From Leucobacter sp. L43 (GTDB lineage Bacteria > Actinomycetota > Actinomycetes > Actinomycetales > Microbacteriaceae): a stretch of DNA of 64,000 nt. Positions 6,129 through 47,214 of the stretch are shown piece by piece. The notes beneath the pieces are model-generated. The model was not told the DNA's origin. It saw only the letters and a program-made list of their open reading frames with translations, and searched no databases. The first letter of the stretch is position 1. The number at the start of each line of letters is the position of its first letter. Location: assembly GCF_016597785.1 (NCBI RefSeq), contig NZ_JAENJG010000001.1, forward strand, positions 1,612,001 to 1,676,000, in the 5' to 3' direction. The translations under genes and the position numbers were made by a program.

Positions 6129-6253
6129 AAGTGCGGCCGGGCGGGGCCGATCCCAGCACACTGGTCGCGGATCGCCATGGCTGCACTCGGCACGCGCCGT
6201 TCGCACGCCGCGCGCGATACCGGCGCCCCCTTCGACCCCGCCAAAGGAGACCC

Positions 6254-7432
6254 ATGACCGTCGAGCGCACCCGAGTCGCCATCGTCGGAGCGGGGCCCGC
6301 CGGCCTCCTGCTGTCGCACCTGCTGGCAGCGGCAGGCGTCGAATCCATCGTGGTCGATGCGCGCAGTCGTCAGGAGATCGAGACGACCATCCGCGCAGGC
6401 ATTCTCGAGCAGGGGACGGTCGAGGTGCTCGACGGCATCGAAGGCAGCCGTGCCCGCACCGTCGGGCACCGCCACGACGGCATCGAGCTCCGCTTCGCCG
6501 GCGAGGGCCACCGCATCGATTTCCCGTCACTCGTCGGACGGTCTGTGTGGCTCTATCCGCAGCACGAGGTACTGAAAGACCTCATCGCTGCGCGCCTCGC
6601 CGCCGGGCAAGATCTGCGGTTCAGCGCGAGCGTCACCGCCGTGCACGACGTCGATTCCGAGCCGCGCGTCGTCGCCACGGACGCTGACGGAGCCCCGTTC
6701 GAGATCCGTTGCGACTTCGTCGTCGGCGCTGATGGATCGCGGAGCGTCGTGCGCCCCGCGGTCGCCGGTGACCGCGGGAACGGCGCATTCCGCGAGTATC
6801 CCTTCGCATGGTTCGGTGTGCTGTGCGAGGCGGCGCCGAGCTCGGACGAGTTGATCTACAGCAATGCGCCCGACGGCTTCGCGCTGATCAGTCAGCGGTC
6901 GGAGACGGTGCAGCGCATGTACTTCCAGTGCGACCCGAGCACCGACCCGGACGCGTTCAGCGAGGCCGAGATCTGGGACGCGTTGCAGCGTCGGGTTCCC
7001 GGCACGCGCCTCACCGAGGGTCCAATCTTCCAACGCGACGTGCTGCGCTTCCGCAGCTTCGTCGCCGGCGGGCTGCGGCGCGGTCGCGCTGCGCTCGTGG
7101 GCGACGCCGCGCACACAGTGCCCCCGACTGGGGCCAAGGGCATGAATCTCGCGATCGCGGACGTGCTGCTGCTCGGCGATGCACTGCGGCGTCTCCTCGT
7201 CGAGCACGATGAGCGGGGCATCGACGCGTACGCCGAAACGGCGCTCCGCCGCATCTGGAAGGCCCAGCATTTCTCCTGGTGGATGACGAGCATGCTGCAC
7301 GCGGTGCATGGCGCCGACGCGTTCGACCGCCAGCGGCAGCTCGGAGAACTCAGAGGCGTCATCGAGTCCGAGGCCGGCCAGCGCTTCCTGGCCGAGGCGT
7401 ACACCGGGTGGCCGCTCCCCTCCACGTTCTGA
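6254..7432 (+). CDS. pobA: 4-hydroxybenzoate 3-monooxygenase
   Basis: FAD-dependent aromatic hydroxylase that converts 4-hydroxybenzoate to protocatechuate, feeding the pca operon on the other strand. The start ATG 6254 follows AAAGGAGA and gives 392 residues, the length of known PobA. The FAD Rossmann motif VAIVGAGPAGLLLSHLL is at residues 8-24. FVVGADGSRSVVR near 155 is the DG motif, and GRAALVGDAAHTVPPTGAKG near 275 contains the GD motif. TIRAGILEQGTVEVL near residue 42 is characteristic of PobA rather than other flavoprotein hydroxylases. The frame is open upstream without a plausible start. Confidence 0.95.
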   Translation: MTVERTRVAIVGAGPAGLLLSHLLAAAGVESIVVDARSRQEIETTIRAGILEQGTVEVLDGIEGSRARTVGHRHDGIELRFAGEGHRIDFPSLVGRSVWLYPQHEVLKDLIAARLAAGQDLRFSASVTAVHDVDSEPRVVATDADGAPFEIRCDFVVGADGSRSVVRPAVAGDRGNGAFREYPFAWFGVLCEAAPSSDELIYSNAPDGFALISQRSETVQRMYFQCDPSTDPDAFSEAEIWDALQRRVPGTRLTEGPIFQRDVLRFRSFVAGGLRRGRAALVGDAAHTVPPTGAKGMNLAIADVLLLGDALRRLLVEHDERGIDAYAETALRRIWKAQHFSWWMTSMLHAVHGADAFDRQRQLGELRGVIESEAGQRFLAEAYTGWPLPSTF

Positions 7433-7520
7433 CCGACGAATGTGACGGGCACCGTGTCGAAAAACGCGTACCGGGCAGTCGCTGCGCGCGACATATGAAG
7501 GTTGAGTTATGTCATACGAC

Positions 7521-7526
7521 TACAGT
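7521..7526 (+). promoter_or_regulatory. Candidate -10 box of oleA (near-leaderless)
   Basis: TACAGT (TANNNT type) ends 8 nt before the oleA ATG at 7535. No Shine-Dalgarno sequence precedes that ATG, so transcription probably starts at or just before the start codon. No good -35 box is visible at the usual distance. Confidence 0.4.
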
Positions 7527-7534
7527 TGACCCCA

Positions 7535-8602
7535 ATGAAACCCGAACCTCCGTCGCCGGCCACCGGGTCCGATGCAGACGCCGCGAACAGCAACTCACGA
7601 CATTCGAACGTCGCACTTCTCGGGCTCGCCGAAGCTGTCGCACCGGTCGAGGTGACCTCCCAATCGTTCGACGAACGACTCAGCGACACGCTCAAGAGCC
7701 TGAACCTTCCGCGAGGCCTGCTCCAGCGGGTCGCAGGCGTCTCCGCGAAACGCAATTGGGAACGCCCAACGGATTACATCGAAGGAGCGGCCTCCGCCGG
7801 ACGGCAGGCGCTGGCCGAGTCAGGAATCCCAGCAGAGAAGATCGGGCTTCTGATCAACGCCTCGGTTTCTCGCGAGGCGCTCGAGCCATCCGTCGCGGTC
7901 GCCGTCCACGACAGCATCGGCCTCGGCCCGGCAGCGATGAACTTCGACATCACCAATGCATGCCTGGGATTCGTCAACGGGATCACCGTCGCTGCGAGCA
8001 TGATCGATGCCGGCCAGATCGACTACGCACTCATCGTCGCGGGCGAGGACATGTCGCGGGTGCAAGAGGCCACCGTCGCCCGCTTGAATCGCGACGGCAT
8101 CACTCGCGAAGAGTACCTGAACGAATTCGCGACGCTGACTCTCGGCTCCGGAGCCGCCGCTGCCGTGCTCGGACGAGCGGATCTGCACCCCGAAGGGCAC
8201 CGTATCCATGGTGGAGTCTCCCGCGCAGCGACGTGGAATCACGCGCTCTGCGTTGGCGACTACGAGGGCATGTTCACCGATACGCAAGGGCTGCTCAGCA
8301 ACGGCATGAGACTCATCTCCGACGCCTGGCACGAGGCTCACGAGAACGACTGGGACTGGAAGGACATGGATCATTACATTCCGCACCAGGTCTCGAACGT
8401 CCACGTCGATGCCCTGACGAACGCCATCGACATCGACGAGTCCAGGATCGCCAAGACCTATCCGGAGCTGGGCAATGTGGGCCCGGCCTCCTTGCCGATC
8501 ACCCTCGCCCGCACAGCTCCGAAGATGAAGCCAGGCGACCGCGTTCTCTGCTTGGGAGTCGGATCAGGTCTGAACACTGCAATGGTGGAGATCACCTGGT
8601 GA
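7535..8602 (+). CDS. oleA: OleA, thiolase-like acyl-CoA condensing enzyme
   Basis: Head-to-head Claisen condensation of two fatty acyl-CoAs to a 2-alkyl-3-ketoacid, the first step of long-chain olefin synthesis. The fold is KAS III-like. With the ATG at 7535 (355 residues) the nucleophile in ITNACLGFVNG is Cys143 and the partner-chain base in REALEPS is Glu117. These are the numbers of the same residues in Xanthomonas OleA, which supports this start over the in-frame TTG at 7502. His284 (YIPHQVSN) and Asn314 (GNVGPAS) complete the site. The Glu separates OleA from FabH. The stop overlaps the GTG of oleBC by 4 bp. Confidence 0.9.
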   Translation: MKPEPPSPATGSDADAANSNSRHSNVALLGLAEAVAPVEVTSQSFDERLSDTLKSLNLPRGLLQRVAGVSAKRNWERPTDYIEGAASAGRQALAESGIPAEKIGLLINASVSREALEPSVAVAVHDSIGLGPAAMNFDITNACLGFVNGITVAASMIDAGQIDYALIVAGEDMSRVQEATVARLNRDGITREEYLNEFATLTLGSGAAAAVLGRADLHPEGHRIHGGVSRAATWNHALCVGDYEGMFTDTQGLLSNGMRLISDAWHEAHENDWDWKDMDHYIPHQVSNVHVDALTNAIDIDESRIAKTYPELGNVGPASLPITLARTAPKMKPGDRVLCLGVGSGLNTAMVEITW

Positions 8603-11328
8603 GGTTCACGGCGCGTCCGGCGGTTCTCCCAGGCCTCCTCTCCGAGTGGGACCAGCAGTGGTCGCGTCTCGTGACGGTGGATACAGGAGACGGCGAACGC
8701 ACGTTCCATGTACTCGACACCCTTCCAGCGCTGCAGGCGCGAGGTCTCGAGCCGAGTGGCACCATTCTGGCGCTGCACGGAAACCCCACGTGGTCGTACT
8801 TGTGGCGCGGCGTCGCCGCCGCAGCACTGAGCGACGCCACGGGAAGGATCTGGCGCGTCATCGCCCCGGATCAGCTCGACATGGGCTACTCCGAGCGCCT
8901 CACGCATGATGCGCTGCCCACGACGCACGGGTCCGGATACCGCCGTCTTGCCGAACGCGTGCGTGATTTCGACGCGGTCGTGCGGTCGCTCCTCGCCGAT
9001 ACTGCCGGGGCCGAGGGATCGCCCTCGCATCCGATCGTCACCCTCGGCCATGACTGGGGCGGAATCGTGTCGCTCACCTGGGCGGCACGAAACCTCGACA
9101 TCGTGGACGGGGTGATCAGCCTCAACACGGGCGTGCACCTCCCCGCGGAGATGTCGCTTCCGACCCCGCTCCGGTTGGCGCTGAGCGGGCCGATCCTGCC
9201 CATCTCCACCGTGTTCACGGACGGGTTTCTGCGCACCACCCTGCATCTCGGTCAGGGGCCCATCCCATCCGAGATTCGTGACGCGTACCGCGCTCCGTAT
9301 CGCGCCGCCGGTCTGCGAGGCGGTATCGGCGCATTCGTCGCCGATGTTCCCGTCGATCCCTCCCATCCGTCGTACGCCGAGCTGCAGCAGTCGGCTGCCG
9401 ACATCAGCGGCATCGACACTCCGGCGCTGCTCGTCTGGGGACCGAAGGACCCGGTGTTCGGTGAGCAGTTCCTGCGCGACCTCCGTCAGCGACTGCCGCA
9501 GGCGGACGTGCATCGCATGGAGCAGGCCTCGCACCTCGTCAGTGAGGACTCCGACGTCGCATCCCTGATCCTCGCCTGGCTTCGGCAGCGCTTCCCCGGC
9601 GAGACCCCGTCCCCCGAAGGGGCATCGCGCCAGAGCGCGGAGGGCGCCGTCACCGCCGCGCGCGATCCTCGCGCTCCGATGATCTTCGAAGCTCTCGACG
9701 CCCGTCGTAATGATTCCTCAGTGGCGAGCGTCGACATGACGCGCACCCCGCCGCACGAGGTGTCCTGGCGGCAGCTCACGAGCGTGAGCGATGGAATCGC
9801 GCAGGGGCTGCAGCAGCTGGGCCTGAAACCGGGAGACCGGGTCTCGTTGCTGGTGACTCCGGGCAACGATCTCACCGCGGTGCTCTACGGCGTGCTCAAG
9901 GCGGGTGGAGTGGCGGTCGTCGCCGATTCCGGGCTGGGCGCGGCCGGCATGACCCGTGCCGTCAAAGCGTCCGATCCGCAGTGGATCATCGGCCAGAAGC
10001 CCGGCCTGCTCCTGGCCCGGGCCGCCGGATGGCCCGGCCGGCGCATCTCCGTTCGACGGCTGAACGCACTCGAACGCGCCGCACTGGGCGTCGAGACGAG
10101 TGTGACCGAGCTGTCGCGCGCGTCGGGCCACGAGCCGATCCGCTCCCCCGGCCCCGATGATGACGCCGTGATCCTGTTCACTTCTGGGTCGACGGGGCCG
10201 GCGAAGGGCGTGCGGTACACGCACGCCCGGTTGGGCGCGCTGGCCCGCACGCTCCGCGAGCAGTTCACCGTGCACGGCGAAACGAGCTGGGCGGCCGGAT
10301 TCGCCCCCTTCGCTCTGCTCGGGCCGGGTCTCGGCATCCGCAGCGTGACTCCCGACATGTCGGTCACGAAGCCGCGCACCCTGACGGCCTCCGCGCTCGC
10401 CGATGCGATTCTCGCCGGCGCATGCACGATGGTCTTCGCATCTCCTGCCGCGTACCGCAACGTGGAGGCGACCGCCGCTGACCTGACCTCCGAGCAACGC
10501 GCGGCCCTCGCGGGCGTCGAGCTCGTGCTGTCGGCCGGAGCTCCCGTGCCGTTGCGACTGCTCGACAACCTCGCGGAGCTCTTTCCGAACGCGCAGATCC
10601 GCTCGCCCTACGGCATGACCGAGGGCCTGATGCTCACCGATATCGATCGCGAGGGCGTCGCGGCCGCCGTCGCTCAATCCCGGGATCACGGCGTCTGCGT
10701 CGGGAGACCGGTTCCGCGCGTGCGAATCGCTGTCGCGCCGCTCGACGAGACCGGGCGGCCCGCCGATGCTCTCCTCACGGACACCGCAGCCGTCGACGTT
10801 CTCGGTGAATTCGTCGTCTCGGCGCCGCACCTCAAAGCGGGCTACGACGGGTTGTGGCACACCGACGCGGCGTCGAAGCGCGACACGCTCGACGGCCTGG
10901 TCTGGCACCGCACGAGCGATATCGGCCACATCGACCCCGAGGGTCGGATCTGGATCGAGGGGCGTCTGCAGCACGTGCTCACCACCTCGTCCGGACCGCT
11001 CGGCCCCGGTGGATTGGAAGCCGTCGTCGACCAGGTGCCCCAGGTGTACCGCTCGGCCGTCGTCGGGGCCGGCCCGCGAGGAGCGCAGGCCGTCGTCGTC
11101 GTCGTCGAACCAGCGCCTGGGATCCGCATGCGGTCGGGTCTTGCTCCTCTGGAGCTCACGGACGCGGTACGGACGGCGCTCGCAGAGCACTTCCCGCACG
11201 ACGTCGCCGCGGTGCTGGTGTCGACCTCGTTCCCGACCGACATCCGTCACAACTCGAAGATCGATCGCACGCGACTGTCGGTGTGGGCTGACGCCGTGCT
11301 GCGCGGTGAGCGCATCGGCGCGCCGTGA
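8599..11328 (+). CDS. oleBC: OleBC fusion: beta-lactone decarboxylase and beta-lactone synthetase
   Basis: A two-enzyme fusion of 909 residues starting at GTG 8599 in a GTGA overlap with oleA. Residues 1-340 are OleB, of the haloalkane dehalogenase family: LHGNPTWSYLWRG at 59-71, nucleophile Asp152 in LGHDWGG, and His312 in EQASHLVSED. It should decarboxylate the cis-beta-lactone to the olefin. After an Ala/Pro/Ser linker, residues about 355-909 are OleC, an ANL-superfamily enzyme with P-loop TSGSTGPAKG at 529-538 and SPYGMTEGLMLTD further on. OleC makes the beta-lactone from the hydroxyacid with ATP. The frame is open 1.3 kb upstream, but that part overlaps pobA and oleA and is not coding. 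Confidence 0.92.
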   Translation: MRFTARPAVLPGLLSEWDQQWSRLVTVDTGDGERTFHVLDTLPALQARGLEPSGTILALHGNPTWSYLWRGVAAAALSDATGRIWRVIAPDQLDMGYSERLTHDALPTTHGSGYRRLAERVRDFDAVVRSLLADTAGAEGSPSHPIVTLGHDWGGIVSLTWAARNLDIVDGVISLNTGVHLPAEMSLPTPLRLALSGPILPISTVFTDGFLRTTLHLGQGPIPSEIRDAYRAPYRAAGLRGGIGAFVADVPVDPSHPSYAELQQSAADISGIDTPALLVWGPKDPVFGEQFLRDLRQRLPQADVHRMEQASHLVSEDSDVASLILAWLRQRFPGETPSPEGASRQSAEGAVTAARDPRAPMIFEALDARRNDSSVASVDMTRTPPHEVSWRQLTSVSDGIAQGLQQLGLKPGDRVSLLVTPGNDLTAVLYGVLKAGGVAVVADSGLGAAGMTRAVKASDPQWIIGQKPGLLLARAAGWPGRRISVRRLNALERAALGVETSVTELSRASGHEPIRSPGPDDDAVILFTSGSTGPAKGVRYTHARLGALARTLREQFTVHGETSWAAGFAPFALLGPGLGIRSVTPDMSVTKPRTLTASALADAILAGACTMVFASPAAYRNVEATAADLTSEQRAALAGVELVLSAGAPVPLRLLDNLAELFPNAQIRSPYGMTEGLMLTDIDREGVAAAVAQSRDHGVCVGRPVPRVRIAVAPLDETGRPADALLTDTAAVDVLGEFVVSAPHLKAGYDGLWHTDAASKRDTLDGLVWHRTSDIGHIDPEGRIWIEGRLQHVLTTSSGPLGPGGLEAVVDQVPQVYRSAVVGAGPRGAQAVVVVVEPAPGIRMRSGLAPLELTDAVRTALAEHFPHDVAAVLVSTSFPTDIRHNSKIDRTRLSVWADAVLRGERIGAP

Positions 11329-11359
11329 CACCTATCGACTCGGCGCGAAAGGAACTCCC

Positions 11360-12328
11360 GTGAAGGTACTCGTCACCGGCGCCTCGGGCGTGCTCGGCTC
11401 CTCGGTCGTGCGGGCGTTGATCGATGGCGGAGACGAAGTGACCACGCTGCAGCGCCGGCCCTCAGGCGTCGAGAGCGCGCGCGATGTGCTGGGGAGCGTG
11501 ACCGAGGACGACGCGGTTGCGAGAGCAATGGCGGGGCAGGCCGCCGTGATCCACCTCGCCGCCAAGGTATCGATGGCCGGTGACGCGAGGGACTTCGAGA
11601 GAGTCAACATCGACGGCACGCGGAGCGTACTCGATGCTGCGCGGAGCGCTGGGGTGACCCGGTTCGTCCACATCTCCTCACCCTCCGTCGCGCATTCGGG
11701 GACGTCTCTCGTCGGAGCGCCGGCCGAGGCGGCCGACCCGGCTTCCGCCCGTGGAGAGTACGCGCGCACGAAAGGCGAGGGCGAACTCCTCGCCCTCGCG
11801 GCGAGTTCAGATGAGTTCCCCGTGCTCGTGCTGCGCCCGCACCTCGTCTGGGGCCCGGGCGACACCCAGCTGACCGAGCGGATCATCGTGCGGTCCAGAC
11901 AGGGGCGCATGCCGATCCTCGGCTCTGGCGCGGCCCTCGTCGACACCCTCTACCTCTCCAACGCCGTCGACGCGATGATCGCGGCACTCGACGCGGTCAC
12001 CCGCGTGCACGGGGAAGCGCTCGTCGTCACGAACGGAGAGCCGCGGCCGATCGCAGAATTCATCGAACGCCTCGCGCTGGCCGGGGGTGCGCGGAAACTT
12101 CGGCTTCGACTGCCGGTCGGGCTCGCCCTCGCGGCCGGCACCACCGTGGATACGGTCTGGAACCTGCGGGAGCACGACGACGAGCCGCCCCTCACCCGCT
12201 TCCTCGCCGAGCAGATGTCGACCGCGCACTGGTTCGATCAGCGCCGCACACGCGAAGTGCTCAAGTGGGAACCCGCGGTGAGTTTCGCCGCAGGCATGGA
12301 GGCGGTAGCTCGGCACTACGGACGGTGA
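11360..12328 (+). CDS. oleD: OleD, NADPH-dependent 2-alkyl-3-ketoacid reductase
   Basis: Extended short-chain dehydrogenase that reduces the OleA product to the 2-alkyl-3-hydroxyacid, the OleC substrate. The nucleotide-binding motif TGASGVLGSSVV lies at residues 6-17 and the catalytic YARTK at 134-138, with the serine in HISSPS near 110. It starts at GTG 11360, 9 nt after an AAAGGAA sequence, giving 322 residues. It follows oleBC by 31 bp on the same strand. All four Ole activities are therefore present in one operon of about 4.8 kb. Confidence 0.88.
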   Translation: MKVLVTGASGVLGSSVVRALIDGGDEVTTLQRRPSGVESARDVLGSVTEDDAVARAMAGQAAVIHLAAKVSMAGDARDFERVNIDGTRSVLDAARSAGVTRFVHISSPSVAHSGTSLVGAPAEAADPASARGEYARTKGEGELLALAASSDEFPVLVLRPHLVWGPGDTQLTERIIVRSRQGRMPILGSGAALVDTLYLSNAVDAMIAALDAVTRVHGEALVVTNGEPRPIAEFIERLALAGGARKLRLRLPVGLALAAGTTVDTVWNLREHDDEPPLTRFLAEQMSTAHWFDQRRTREVLKWEPAVSFAAGMEAVARHYGR

Positions 12329-12360
12329 GCTGCTGGTCTGCGGACCCGACGTCGTGAGCG

Positions 12361-12409
12361 GCGAGCGTGCTCGCATGCAATGAGGCGCGCTTGGCGGCAG
12401 GCGCTGCCG
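12361..12409. terminator. Two small hairpins between oleD and the thiamine-binding gene
   Basis: Convergent gap of 87 bp. GCGAGC-GT-GCTCGC (12361-12374) and CGGCAG-GCG-CTGCCG (12395-12409) are perfect 6-bp stems. Neither has a T-tract. They may act as a bidirectional stop between the converging genes. Confidence 0.3.
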
Positions 12410-12415
12410 AACCCG

Positions 12416-12721
12416 TTACTCGCCCGCATCCCCGATCGCAGCCTCCAGCCGCTCCAGCTTCCCGTCGAGCTCGCCCTCGAACCCGGGACGGATGTCGGCT
12501 TTCATCACGAGCGACACCCGCGACCCAAAGGGCAGCACCGCCTCGGTCGCGCGCTTCACGACGTCGAAGACCTCGTCCCACTCGCCCTCGATCTCGGTGA
12601 ACATGGACGAGGTGCGGTGCGGCAGGCCCGATGCGCGCACCACCTTCACCGCCTCGGCGACGGCATCGGAGACGGAGGCGTTGCCGGTGCCCGACGGGGC
12701 GACGGAGAATGCGAGGATCAT
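12416..12721 (-). CDS. MTH1187-family thiamine-binding protein
   Basis: Small ferredoxin-like protein of 101 residues, DUF77/thiamine_BP family. Family features are the start MILAFSVAPSGTGNASVSDAV, MFTEIEGEWDEVFDVVKRAT in the middle, and RVSLVMKADIRPGFEGELDG near the end. Members bind thiamine or related compounds; the exact role is unsettled. It lies 44 bp downstream of the MFS exporter on the same strand. The frame continues upstream through the exporter gene, but there it reads as a shadow frame. GAAAGGAACGCGAAC stands before the ATG. Confidence 0.85.
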   Translation of the reverse strand: MILAFSVAPSGTGNASVSDAVAEAVKVVRASGLPHRTSSMFTEIEGEWDEVFDVVKRATEAVLPFGSRVSLVMKADIRPGFEGELDGKLERLEAAIGDAGE

Positions 12722-43659: not shown

Positions 43660-43687
43660 GCAACAAACGGCAGCTCCGGAGGCACCC

Positions 43688-45724
43688 ATGACCGACCCCA
43701 CCGCCCAGGCACTCATCGCCCGCTCGAACCGACTCGGCGCAGATAAGAAGAACACGAACTTCGCGGGCGGCAACACGTCGGCGAAGGGGTTCACCACCGA
43801 TCCCGTGACCGGCGAAGACGTCGAACTCATGTGGGTCAAGGGCTCCGGCGGCGACCTCGGCACGCTCACCGCCGCCGGGCTCTCGGCGCTGCGCATCGAC
43901 CGCCTCCGCGCACTCGTGAACGTCTACCCCGGCCTCGAGCGCGAAGACGAAATGGTCGCAGCCCTCGACTACTGCCTCCACGGCAAGGGCGGCGCGGCGC
44001 CGTCGATCGACACCGCAATGCACGGCCTCGTCGACGCGGCCCACGTCGACCACCTGCACCCCGACTCCGGCATCGCGATCGCGACCGCAGCCGACGGCGA
44101 AGCGCTCACCGCGAAGATCTTCGGCGACAAGGTCGTGTGGGTGCCCTGGCGCCGCCCCGGCTTCCAGCTCGGCCTCGACATCGCCGCCATCAAGGCGGAG
44201 CATCCCGAGGCGATCGGCTGCATCCTCGGCGGCCACGGCATCACGGCCTGGGGCGACACGAGCGAGGAGAGCGAGCGGAATTCGCTCTGGATCATCGACA
44301 CCGCTGCCGCCTACATCGCCGAGCACGGCGCACCCGAACCCTTCGGCGGCGTCGTCGCCGGATTCGAGCCTCTTCCCGAGACCGAGCGCCGCGCCCGCGC
44401 AGCCCAGCTCGCGCCGGTGGTGCGGGGAATCGCGAGCACCGACAAGCCGATGGTCGGGCACTTCACTGACTCCGACGCCGTGCTCGACTTCCTGTCCCGC
44501 GAGAAGCTCGCCCCGCTCGCGGCGCTCGGCACGAGCTGCCCCGACCACTTCCTGCGCACGAAGGTGAAGCCGCTCGTACTCGATCTGCCGGCCACCGCCA
44601 CGGCCGAGGATCAGATCAATCGCCTGCACGAACTGCACGCGGCATACCGTGAGGACTACCGCGCCTACTACGAGGCGCACGCCGACGAGACGAGCCCCGC
44701 CATGCGCGGCGCCGATCCGCTCATCGTGCTCATCCCGGGCGTCGGCATGTTCAGCTACGGCGCGAACAAGCAGACCGCCCGCGTCGCCGGCGAGTTCTAC
44801 GTCAACGCCATCAACGTCATGCGCGGTGCCGAGTCGCTCTCCACCTACGCCCCCATCAGCGACGCAGAGAAGTTCCGCATCGAGTACTGGGCCCTCGAGG
44901 AGGCCAAACTCCAGCGCATGCCGAAACCGAAGTCGCACCAGGGCCGCATCGCCTTCGTCACCGGCGCCGCCTCCGGCATCGGGAAGGCGATCGCAACGCG
45001 CCTCGCCGCCGAGGGCGCGTGCGTCGTCGTGGCCGATCTCGACCTCGAGAAGGCGCAGGCCGCAGCAGCCGAGCTCGGGAATGCAGACGTCGCCATCGGC
45101 GTGGCAGCGAACGTCGCCGACGCGGCAGCCGTACAGGGCGCGATCGACGCCGCGGTGCTCGCATTCGGCGGCGTCGACCTCGTCGTCAACAACGCCGGGC
45201 TCTCGCTCTCGAAGTCCCTGCTCGACACCACCGAAGCCGACTGGAACCTGCAGCACGACGTCATGGCGAAGGGCTCCTTCCTCGTCGCCCAGGCCGCCGC
45301 ACGCGCCATGATCGCGCAGAAGCTCGGAGGCGACGTCATCTACATCTCCTCCAAGAACAGCGTCTTCGCCGGCCCGAACAACATCGCGTACTCCGCCACC
45401 AAGGCCGACCAGGCCCACCAGGTGCGGCTCCTCGCCGTCGAACTCGGCGAGCACGGCATCCGCGTCAACGGCATCAACCCCGACGGCGTCGTGCGCGGAT
45501 CCGGGATCTTCGCAGCGGGGTGGGGCGCCAACCGCGCCGCGACCTACGGCGTCAAGGAAGAGGATCTCGGCCAGTTCTACGCGAACCGCACCATCTTGAA
45601 GCGCGAGGTCGTGCCCGAGAACGTCGCCGACGCGGTCTACGTGCTCACCGGCCCCGAGCTGACCCGCACCACCGGTCTCCACATCCCCGTCGATTCCGGC
45701 GTCGCCGCGGCGTTCCTGCGATGA
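43688..45724 (+). CDS. rhaD: Bifunctional rhamnulose-1-phosphate aldolase / L-lactaldehyde dehydrogenase
   Basis: Fusion of 678 residues (RhaE-W type). Residues about 1-410 are a class II aldolase: FAGGNTSAKG near 21, MWVKGSGGDLGTL near 50, zinc His pair in AAHVDHLHPDSGIA near 118, and LGGHGITAWG near 180. It splits L-rhamnulose 1-phosphate to dihydroxyacetone phosphate and L-lactaldehyde. Residues about 418-678 are a short-chain dehydrogenase: FVTGAASGIGKAIATRL, NNAGLSLS and catalytic YSATKADQAH. The second half is thought to oxidise lactaldehyde to L-lactate. CGGAGG precedes the ATG by 5 nt. Confidence 0.92.
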   Translation: MTDPTAQALIARSNRLGADKKNTNFAGGNTSAKGFTTDPVTGEDVELMWVKGSGGDLGTLTAAGLSALRIDRLRALVNVYPGLEREDEMVAALDYCLHGKGGAAPSIDTAMHGLVDAAHVDHLHPDSGIAIATAADGEALTAKIFGDKVVWVPWRRPGFQLGLDIAAIKAEHPEAIGCILGGHGITAWGDTSEESERNSLWIIDTAAAYIAEHGAPEPFGGVVAGFEPLPETERRARAAQLAPVVRGIASTDKPMVGHFTDSDAVLDFLSREKLAPLAALGTSCPDHFLRTKVKPLVLDLPATATAEDQINRLHELHAAYREDYRAYYEAHADETSPAMRGADPLIVLIPGVGMFSYGANKQTARVAGEFYVNAINVMRGAESLSTYAPISDAEKFRIEYWALEEAKLQRMPKPKSHQGRIAFVTGAASGIGKAIATRLAAEGACVVVADLDLEKAQAAAAELGNADVAIGVAANVADAAAVQGAIDAAVLAFGGVDLVVNNAGLSLSKSLLDTTEADWNLQHDVMAKGSFLVAQAAARAMIAQKLGGDVIYISSKNSVFAGPNNIAYSATKADQAHQVRLLAVELGEHGIRVNGINPDGVVRGSGIFAAGWGANRAATYGVKEEDLGQFYANRTILKREVVPENVADAVYVLTGPELTRTTGLHIPVDSGVAAAFLR

Positions 45725-47214
45725 GCGACGCGGCTGCAGGATCGGCGGTCGGCGGCGCCGACGTCGGCGCTCCGGCCGCCGGTCGCGCCGTCGCAGCAGT
45801 CGACCTCGGGGCGACGAGCGGGCGCGTCATCGTCGGCCGCATCGCGCACGGCCCAGACGGTGCCGAACTGCGCACCCAGCACGTGGCGCGCTTCGCGAAC
45901 GACCCCGTGCGCACGAGCGACGGCCTGCACTGGAACTTCCTCGAGCTCTACCACCAGGCGCTGCAGGGGCTCGCCGCCGCCGAGCGCAGCGCCCCCGGGA
46001 AGATCGCGTCGATCGGCATCGACTCGTGGGCGGTCGACTACGGCCTGCTGCGTCACGGCCGCCTGCTCGGCATCCCCTACCACTACCGCGATGCGCGCTG
46101 CGAAGCCGGCGTCGCAGCCGTGCTCGCGCGCGTACCGGCCGAGCGCCTCTACGCCCGCAACGGCCTGCAGCATCTCACCTTCAACACGATCTTCCAGCTC
46201 GCCGCAGAGGACGGCCTGCTCGACGTGGCCGACCGCGCACTGCTCGTGCCGGACCTGTTGAACTACTGGCTCACCGGAGTGGAGGCCGCGGAGCGCAGCA
46301 ACGCGTCGACCACCGGGCTGCTCGATCCGCGAACACGCGAATGGGATCTCGAACTCGCGGAAGAGGCGGGCATTCCCGCGCGCATCCTGCCGCAGCTCAT
46401 CGAGGCGGGCACCCGCCTCGGGCCCGTCACCGGAGACGCAGCGAAGGTCATCGGCCGGGCGATCGACGTCGTCGCGGTCGCCTCGCACGACACAGCCTCC
46501 GCCGTCGCAGCGGTACCGGCCACGCGATCCGACTTCGCCTACATCTCGTGCGGGACCTGGGGCCTCGTCGGCCTCGAACTCGATGCCCCCGTGCTCACCG
46601 ACGCCGCCCGCCTCGCGAACTTCACCAACGAGGGCGGCATCGAGGGCACCACGCGCTTCCTGCACAACGTCATGGGCACATGGCTGTTCTCGGAGTCGCT
46701 GCGGCACTGGGAGCCCGGTGCGACGAACGCGCAGCGATCCAGCCTGCTCGGCGAACTGCTCGCCGACGCAGCATCGGTCACCGGCCCCATCCCCGTCTTC
46801 GACGCGAACGACCCACAGTTCATGCCGCCCGGCGACCTGCCCGACCGCATCGTGCGCTGGTTCGAAGCACGCGGCGAACGCGCACCCGAGGGGCGGGCCG
46901 AGATCGTCCGCTCGATCACGGAGAGCCTCGCCGTGGCATTCGCCGACGCCGTGGAGACGGCGAGCCGACTGGCGGATCGCGAGGTCTCGACCATCCACGT
47001 CGTCGGCGGCGGCTCGCAGAACACCCTGCTCTGCCAGCGCCTCGCCGACCGATCCGGCCTCGAAGTGCTCGCCGGCCCCGTCGAAGCGACCGCGATGGGC
47101 AACCTGCTCATCCAGGCGCAGACGCTCGGCCTCATCGGCCCGGGTCTCACCGAGCTGCGCGCCGTCGTGGCCCGATCCACCGCCCCCATCCGTTACACCC
47201 CCGCTTCGCGTTAG
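45721..47214 (+). CDS. rhaB: Rhamnulokinase
   Basis: FGGY kinase that phosphorylates L-rhamnulose at C1, 497 residues. VAAVDLGATSGRVIVGRI near residue 24 is the RhaB form of the phosphate loop (LGATSGR). RFANDPVRTSDGLHWNFLEL near 56, IGIDSWAVDYGLL near 98 and VASHDTASAVAAVP near 257 are RhaB-specific. YISCGTWGLVGLELDAPVL and VVGGGSQNTLLCQRLADRSG follow. The ATG overlaps the aldolase stop by 4 bp. A low-complexity Ala/Gly stretch of 20 residues leads the protein. Confidence 0.94.
   Translation: MSDAAAGSAVGGADVGAPAAGRAVAAVDLGATSGRVIVGRIAHGPDGAELRTQHVARFANDPVRTSDGLHWNFLELYHQALQGLAAAERSAPGKIASIGIDSWAVDYGLLRHGRLLGIPYHYRDARCEAGVAAVLARVPAERLYARNGLQHLTFNTIFQLAAEDGLLDVADRALLVPDLLNYWLTGVEAAERSNASTTGLLDPRTREWDLELAEEAGIPARILPQLIEAGTRLGPVTGDAAKVIGRAIDVVAVASHDTASAVAAVPATRSDFAYISCGTWGLVGLELDAPVLTDAARLANFTNEGGIEGTTRFLHNVMGTWLFSESLRHWEPGATNAQRSSLLGELLADAASVTGPIPVFDANDPQFMPPGDLPDRIVRWFEARGERAPEGRAEIVRSITESLAVAFADAVETASRLADREVSTIHVVGGGSQNTLLCQRLADRSGLEVLAGPVEATAMGNLLIQAQTLGLIGPGLTELRAVVARSTAPIRYTPASR

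Follow-up and report, generated by a model that had tools for sequence, protein, structure and literature searches.

In Xanthomonas campestris, OleB and OleC are separate proteins. The four activities of its oleABCD genes are also predicted for the operon described here, in which OleB and OleC are joined. Fusion of oleB and oleC has been seen earlier in certain Actinobacteria, typically Micrococcales (PMC7064751), and oleA, oleBC and oleD are treated as an operon in PMC7158056. Olefins are reported from Clavibacter and Curtobacterium (traces), Microbacterium and others, and from every genus that had sequenced ole genes and was analysed for its lipids; in Micrococcales they are mostly branched and C27-C29 in length, with shorter ones in Kocuria and Kytococcus (PMC7158056). 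According to the survey in the same paper, ole genes are nearly always all-or-none per genus and lateral transfer is rare. The oleBC cluster of Granulosicoccus is fused too, and its authors suggested that it may have spread by horizontal transfer; unlike in the case described here, that transfer would be across phyla, and no empty site is described in the available text (PMC7064751). The beta-lactone clusters, which contain oleACD without oleB, differ from the present locus, where the OleB half is present with its residues.

The window, a 64,000-nucleotide stretch of the Leucobacter sp. L43 genome, carries an operon that is like those of Micrococcus luteus and other Micrococcales in gene order, fusion and predicted alkene product (PMC7158056, PMC7064751). 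The operon is as a preliminary description of this DNA had it, but it is ordinary in kind, and the new part is its origin: compared with the M. luteus-type operons, the window copy is closest to Brevibacterium yet lies in the genome of another family.

Structure of the oleA-oleBC-oleD operon

The three genes form one intact operon on the plus strand with all expected catalytic residues in place. oleA (7535-8602, +) encodes a 355-aa acyl-CoA head-to-head condensing thiolase. The GTG start of oleBC (8599-11328, +; 909 aa) lies over the oleA stop in a 4-base overlap, and oleD (11360-12328, +), which also starts with GTG, begins 31 bases after the oleBC stop; homologues of OleB, OleC and OleD all adjoin oleA. 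OleBC is a single frame in which OleB precedes OleC over residues 1-909, as in the Micrococcales fusion type. Its OleB half (approximately residues 1-333; 8599-9597, +) is an alpha/beta hydrolase resembling haloalkane dehalogenases and is joined by a linker (approximately residues 334-360; 9598-9678, +) to the OleC half (approximately residues 361-909; 9679-11328, +), a predicted AMP-binding beta-lactone synthetase. OleD is a predicted NAD(P)H-dependent reductase with the motifs GASGVLG and YARTK (134-138; Tyr134-x3-Lys138). Coordinates, intact frames, domains and residues bear out the single complete operon of the preliminary description, and the residues and numbers given there (OleA Cys143/Glu117, OleB Asp152/His312, the OleC P-loop and the OleD YxxxK) were correct.

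OleA scored above the cut-off of NCBIfam PRK09258 (430 vs 285 bits) and matched solved OleA-type structures at E ~1e-83, with Cys143 and Glu117 aligned to them. We take the source and numbering of these structures to be those of Xanthomonas, and we assume the accepted roles for Cys143, Glu117, His284 and Asn314. Comparison by eye also found the OleA pattern EPxx[AS]x(14,18)DxxNACL of PMC7158056. Across 111 related loci, the tested residues were identical in 106/106 rows for OleA, 107/107 for OleBC (including Asp152, Trp153, Asp284 and His312) and 108/108 for OleD, counts that exclude 5, 4 and 3 rows, respectively, with short, missing or broken matches and in which Gulosibacter chungangensis enters twice (L006, L040).

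Pfam places an Abhydrolase_1 domain at residues 55-317 of OleBC and the AMP-binding half at residues 370-749. The named matches of the OleB half were mostly haloalkane dehalogenases, those from NCBIfam lying under their curated cut-offs, and it carries the Asp/His residues of that type (Asp152, Asp284, His312), which are presumably catalytic. The OleC half has an SGSTGPAKG loop at 529-537, YGMTEG from 671, Asp774 and Lys887, and a fold search with it returned adenylate-forming enzymes only, among the 50 matches listed. OleD belongs to the NAD-dependent epimerase/reductase family, and its best NCBIfam match was the OleD model, under that model's cut-off. Since OleC scored 265/241 bits against cut-offs of 900/850 for NF045786/NF045785 (Xanthomonas/Shewanella OleC) and OleD 274/212 against 580/580 for NF042422/NF042423, neither is assigned to those Xanthomonas/Shewanella equivalogs.

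Structure prediction of the linker and interface, which had been proposed earlier, gave two well-predicted OleBC domains with a poorly predicted linker between them (block-mean pLDDT 35-63). The AlphaFold model, built from a 39-row alignment, had a mean pLDDT of 88.2 and a pTM of 0.88. Its pLDDT falls under 50 at 337-354, between both domains, and in three shorter stretches at 137-141, 530-534 and 882-886, the last two of which adjoin active-site motifs of the OleC half.

The fusion highlighted in the preliminary description is real, and the statement that it is known from some actinobacteria agrees with PMC7064751. As a peculiarity of this locus it does not stand: OleB and OleC share one frame in 77 of the 80 named relatives (exceptions L093, L096 and L105) and in 30 of the 31 anonymous loci of the genus and family, the exception being a broken copy in G397, although these sets consist of best matches to this OleBC and lean to fused forms.

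Upstream of oleA, the sequence TACAGT (7521-7526, +), 8 bases ahead of the ATG, is a possible -10 hexamer, and no clear ribosome site was seen by eye in 7521-7537. Similar hexamers (TAGGCT/TAGACT) were seen by eye close ahead of the oleA ATG in Microbacterium gubbeenense, Agrococcus casei and Gulosibacter. The oleA message may be leaderless.

Distribution and phylogeny

OleBC was found in 3/54 genomes of the window's genus (E<=1e-30), in 171/398 genomes drawn from its family (E<=1e-60) and in 166/396 genomes of an order-level sample. The host genus is mixed, with carriers and non-carriers and with two different operon types. In its other two carriers, G039 and G048, OleBC is of the family's own type and 50-52% identical to that of the window; both operons sit at a distance from pobA, and the flanks of the two match. 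Identity to 29 other loci, the best-scoring from the genus and family searches, was 48-51%. The closest copies are those of M. gubbeenense DSM 15944 and A. casei LMG 22410 (OleBC 78% and 74%, OleA 78-83%, OleD 81-82%), then G. chungangensis (OleBC 69%), a species that we place, also on the basis of rpoB, in the window's family Microbacteriaceae, and Brevibacterium (55-68%). In the order search, every other match of at least 58% identity came from family f7, among the matches listed; f7 includes Brevibacterium sp. CS2, as shown by the identical rpoB coordinates of G723 and G817. In the Gulosibacter group (g20), another genome, G397, has this operon in a decayed state at ~7923-12098 (L122), where the OleA matches stop at residue 116 and restart at 311 and OleBC is split over two frames.

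In a tree of 52 OleBC rows, hand-picked for spread from the 112 loci L003-L114, a group made up of the window, M. gubbeenense, A. casei and Gulosibacter has a support of 100 and is nested among Brevibacterium (99 and 94 at the next two nodes). Of those 52 rows, 36 were hand-picked for the OleA, OleD and joined trees and for the AU tests, with L006 as the only Gulosibacter. The same four carriers are grouped by OleA and OleD (100 and 97), again among Brevibacterium, where the nesting is weak for OleA, and in the joined OleA/OleBC/OleD tree, too, these four are found together on the side of Brevibacterium. When the 14 Brevibacterium rows, a group defined before the AU tests yet after the OleBC tree was known, were constrained to a clade of their own, this arrangement was rejected by the joined data (p 0.0005) and by OleBC (p 0.024); the result for OleD was marginal (p 0.054), and OleA alone did not reject it (p 0.387). 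Uniting the 14 OleBC rows of the family in one clade was rejected as well (p 1.4e-5).

In the rpoB control tree, which has 23 of 26 genomes (G009 and an Agrococcus MAG had no rpoB match, and G723, which duplicates Brevibacterium sp. CS2, was left out), the four carriers fall within a group of 13 rows from the window's family (100/100), apart from six Brevibacterium, and joining the four carriers to Brevibacterium in one clade was rejected (p 4e-44). The window pairs with G008, at 99% identity, and the two are joined next by other members of the genus.

The probable insertion site

The probably acquired block (7433-12415, ~4.98 kb) contains the ole operon and nothing else that was recognised as a gene. 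It is flanked on the left by a pobA-like 4-hydroxybenzoate 3-monooxygenase gene (6170-7432, +) and on the right by a Thiamine_BP family gene (12416-12721, -), and it is missing at the same site in G009, a close relative in the same genus, where the matches to these two genes are 36 bases apart, compared with 5.0 kb in the window. Both insertion flanks lie on one contig of the G009 draft, and a search of that genome (93% completeness) gave no OleBC match. The DNA identity between G009 and the window is 83% for pobA, 89% for the thiamine-binding gene and 86% for the next 6 kb, and the transporter beside the thiamine-binding gene is 95% identical at the protein level. In G008, in which no ole operon was found, the same interval (G008:C1, ~445500-481300; L116-L118) contains ~36 kb of other genes, and the site therefore looks variable. 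These genes include permeases, an aldehyde dehydrogenase, a hydantoinase and a PucR regulator: 10 frames comprised seven transport, catabolism or regulation families, one AAA lid domain and two frames without a match, one further frame was a GFO/IDH/MocA oxidoreductase, and no transposase or integrase was present among the 11 frames examined of the 22 longest.

The frames flanking the operon in the window matched only G008, G009 and G023 of the same genus, plus one Gulosibacter match at 30%. The genes flanking the ole operons of M. gubbeenense DSM 15944 and A. casei LMG 22410 do not match the window flanks, and the closest ole operons elsewhere have neighbours that differ from the window's, among the matches listed. 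A flanking gene common to M. gubbeenense and A. casei is alanine-dehydrogenase-like and no transposase.

No mobile gene lies within 7433-12415, no exact direct repeat of at least 7 bases is shared by its edges (7418-7540 vs 12326-12440), and the insert shows none of the signs of a genomic island or mobile element that were sought (integrase, transposase, terminal direct repeats). No plasmid vehicle was found among the 54 matching PLSDB records, none of which reached 60% identity to OleBC. Annotated plasmid matches also pointed to a rhamnulose-1-phosphate aldolase/dehydrogenase-like gene at 43685-45734 of the window. Base composition was uninformative as a sign of transfer: the G+C of the whole operon (0.681) equals that of its surroundings (0.686 for the rest of the window), with oleA alone lower at 0.632, and the operon is above its flanks in G+C not only in M. 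gubbeenense, A. casei and Gulosibacter (L035, L036, L040) but also in two Brevibacterium (L037, L038).

Origin, predicted product and setting

The patchy presence in the genus, the Brevibacterium-side trees, the position of rpoB within the host family and the empty site of G009 together argue that this intact Micrococcales-type oleA-oleBC-oleD operon was very probably gained in one piece of 5 kb from a donor resembling Brevibacterium. Most simply, the Brevibacterium-type operon would have entered an ancestor of the window species once that lineage had separated from G009, and related operons would have arrived in three further genera of the family, either through separate transfers from Brevibacterium or through a single transfer with later spread inside the family. 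Among open-licence papers, we found no title or abstract opening describing this transfer. Presence and absence by themselves cannot separate gain from loss, and the operon might instead be ancestral in the genus and have been precisely lost in most species, including G009, with its likeness to Brevibacterium due to slow evolution or tree error. The failure of OleA alone to reject a separate Brevibacterium clade is in keeping with such a history. However, the operons of two further species in the genus belong to the family's own type and sit at a different locus, and the AU tests reject both the single family clade of OleBC and, with the joined data, the Brevibacterium-only clade, so that we regard ancestral presence followed by loss as improbable. 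Acquisition also bears on the aromatic neighbours of the operon. These were correctly noted in the preliminary description and comprise two protocatechuate-dioxygenase-type proteins, an IclR regulator and the 4-hydroxybenzoate 3-monooxygenase-like gene; as a sign of common function they do not hold up. A functional coupling of ole to the adjoining aromatic catabolism, for example through common regulation or acyl-CoA supply, would fit the fact that pobA and ole are same-strand neighbours, but G009 keeps pobA beside the thiamine-binding gene with no ole between them, G008 has its own genes in that interval, and other operons of this clade have different neighbours, among the matches listed. Given the empty site and the differing neighbours we reject the link, coupling being barely credible, and because the G009 site is empty of ole, the aromatic adjacency seems to be a chance result of where the block inserted.

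From what is described for these families, OleA would condense two fatty acyl-CoAs head to head to a 2-alkyl-3-keto acid, which OleD would reduce to the 3-hydroxy acid. The OleC half would then activate the carboxylate with ATP and close the beta-lactone, from which the OleB half, via Asp152 and His312, would remove CO2 to leave a cis internal alkene. The fusion could, as the preliminary description suggests, prevent leakage of the lactone. Alkene production is thus the outcome expected from the gene content of the operon. By analogy with most Micrococcales tested in print, the product is likely an iso/anteiso-branched internal alkene of ~C27-C29; chain length follows OleA, which is here of the Brevibacterium type, so the product length could differ. 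Ole-like clusters without oleB make beta-lactones (PMC7064751), and OleBC might similarly act mainly as a synthetase, with the operon ending at the beta-lactone instead of the alkene. The completeness of the OleB half, whose Asp152, Trp153, Asp284 and His312 are invariant in the rows compared, and the olefins found in every ole-gene genus whose lipids were analysed in PMC7158056 speak against a lactone end product, to which we give only a very slight chance.

Two of the other carriers, A. casei and M. gubbeenense, are known from smear-ripened cheese (PMC6613336), which is rich in Brevibacterium and in which actinobacterial genera are reported to exchange genes (PMC5526665); the words 'olefin' and 'oleA' do not occur in the main text of the latter paper. 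Cheese as the setting of the transfer is a lead only. Gulosibacter is not, to our knowledge, a cheese genus. More tentatively, a compact operon of Brevibacterium origin may be moving repeatedly among Actinobacteria living on shared surfaces, such as smear-ripened cheese and other salty habitats, cleanly and without a mobile element, a proposal that we consider possible though somewhat doubtful. If it is true, membrane-alkene production would be an exchangeable trait and no fixed mark of a genus. The mixed state of the host genus, with 3 carriers among 54 genomes and two operon types, contrasts with the all-or-none pattern described in PMC7158056. For the question of what alkenes do for a cell, the window species and its empty-site relative G009 form a natural before/after pair.
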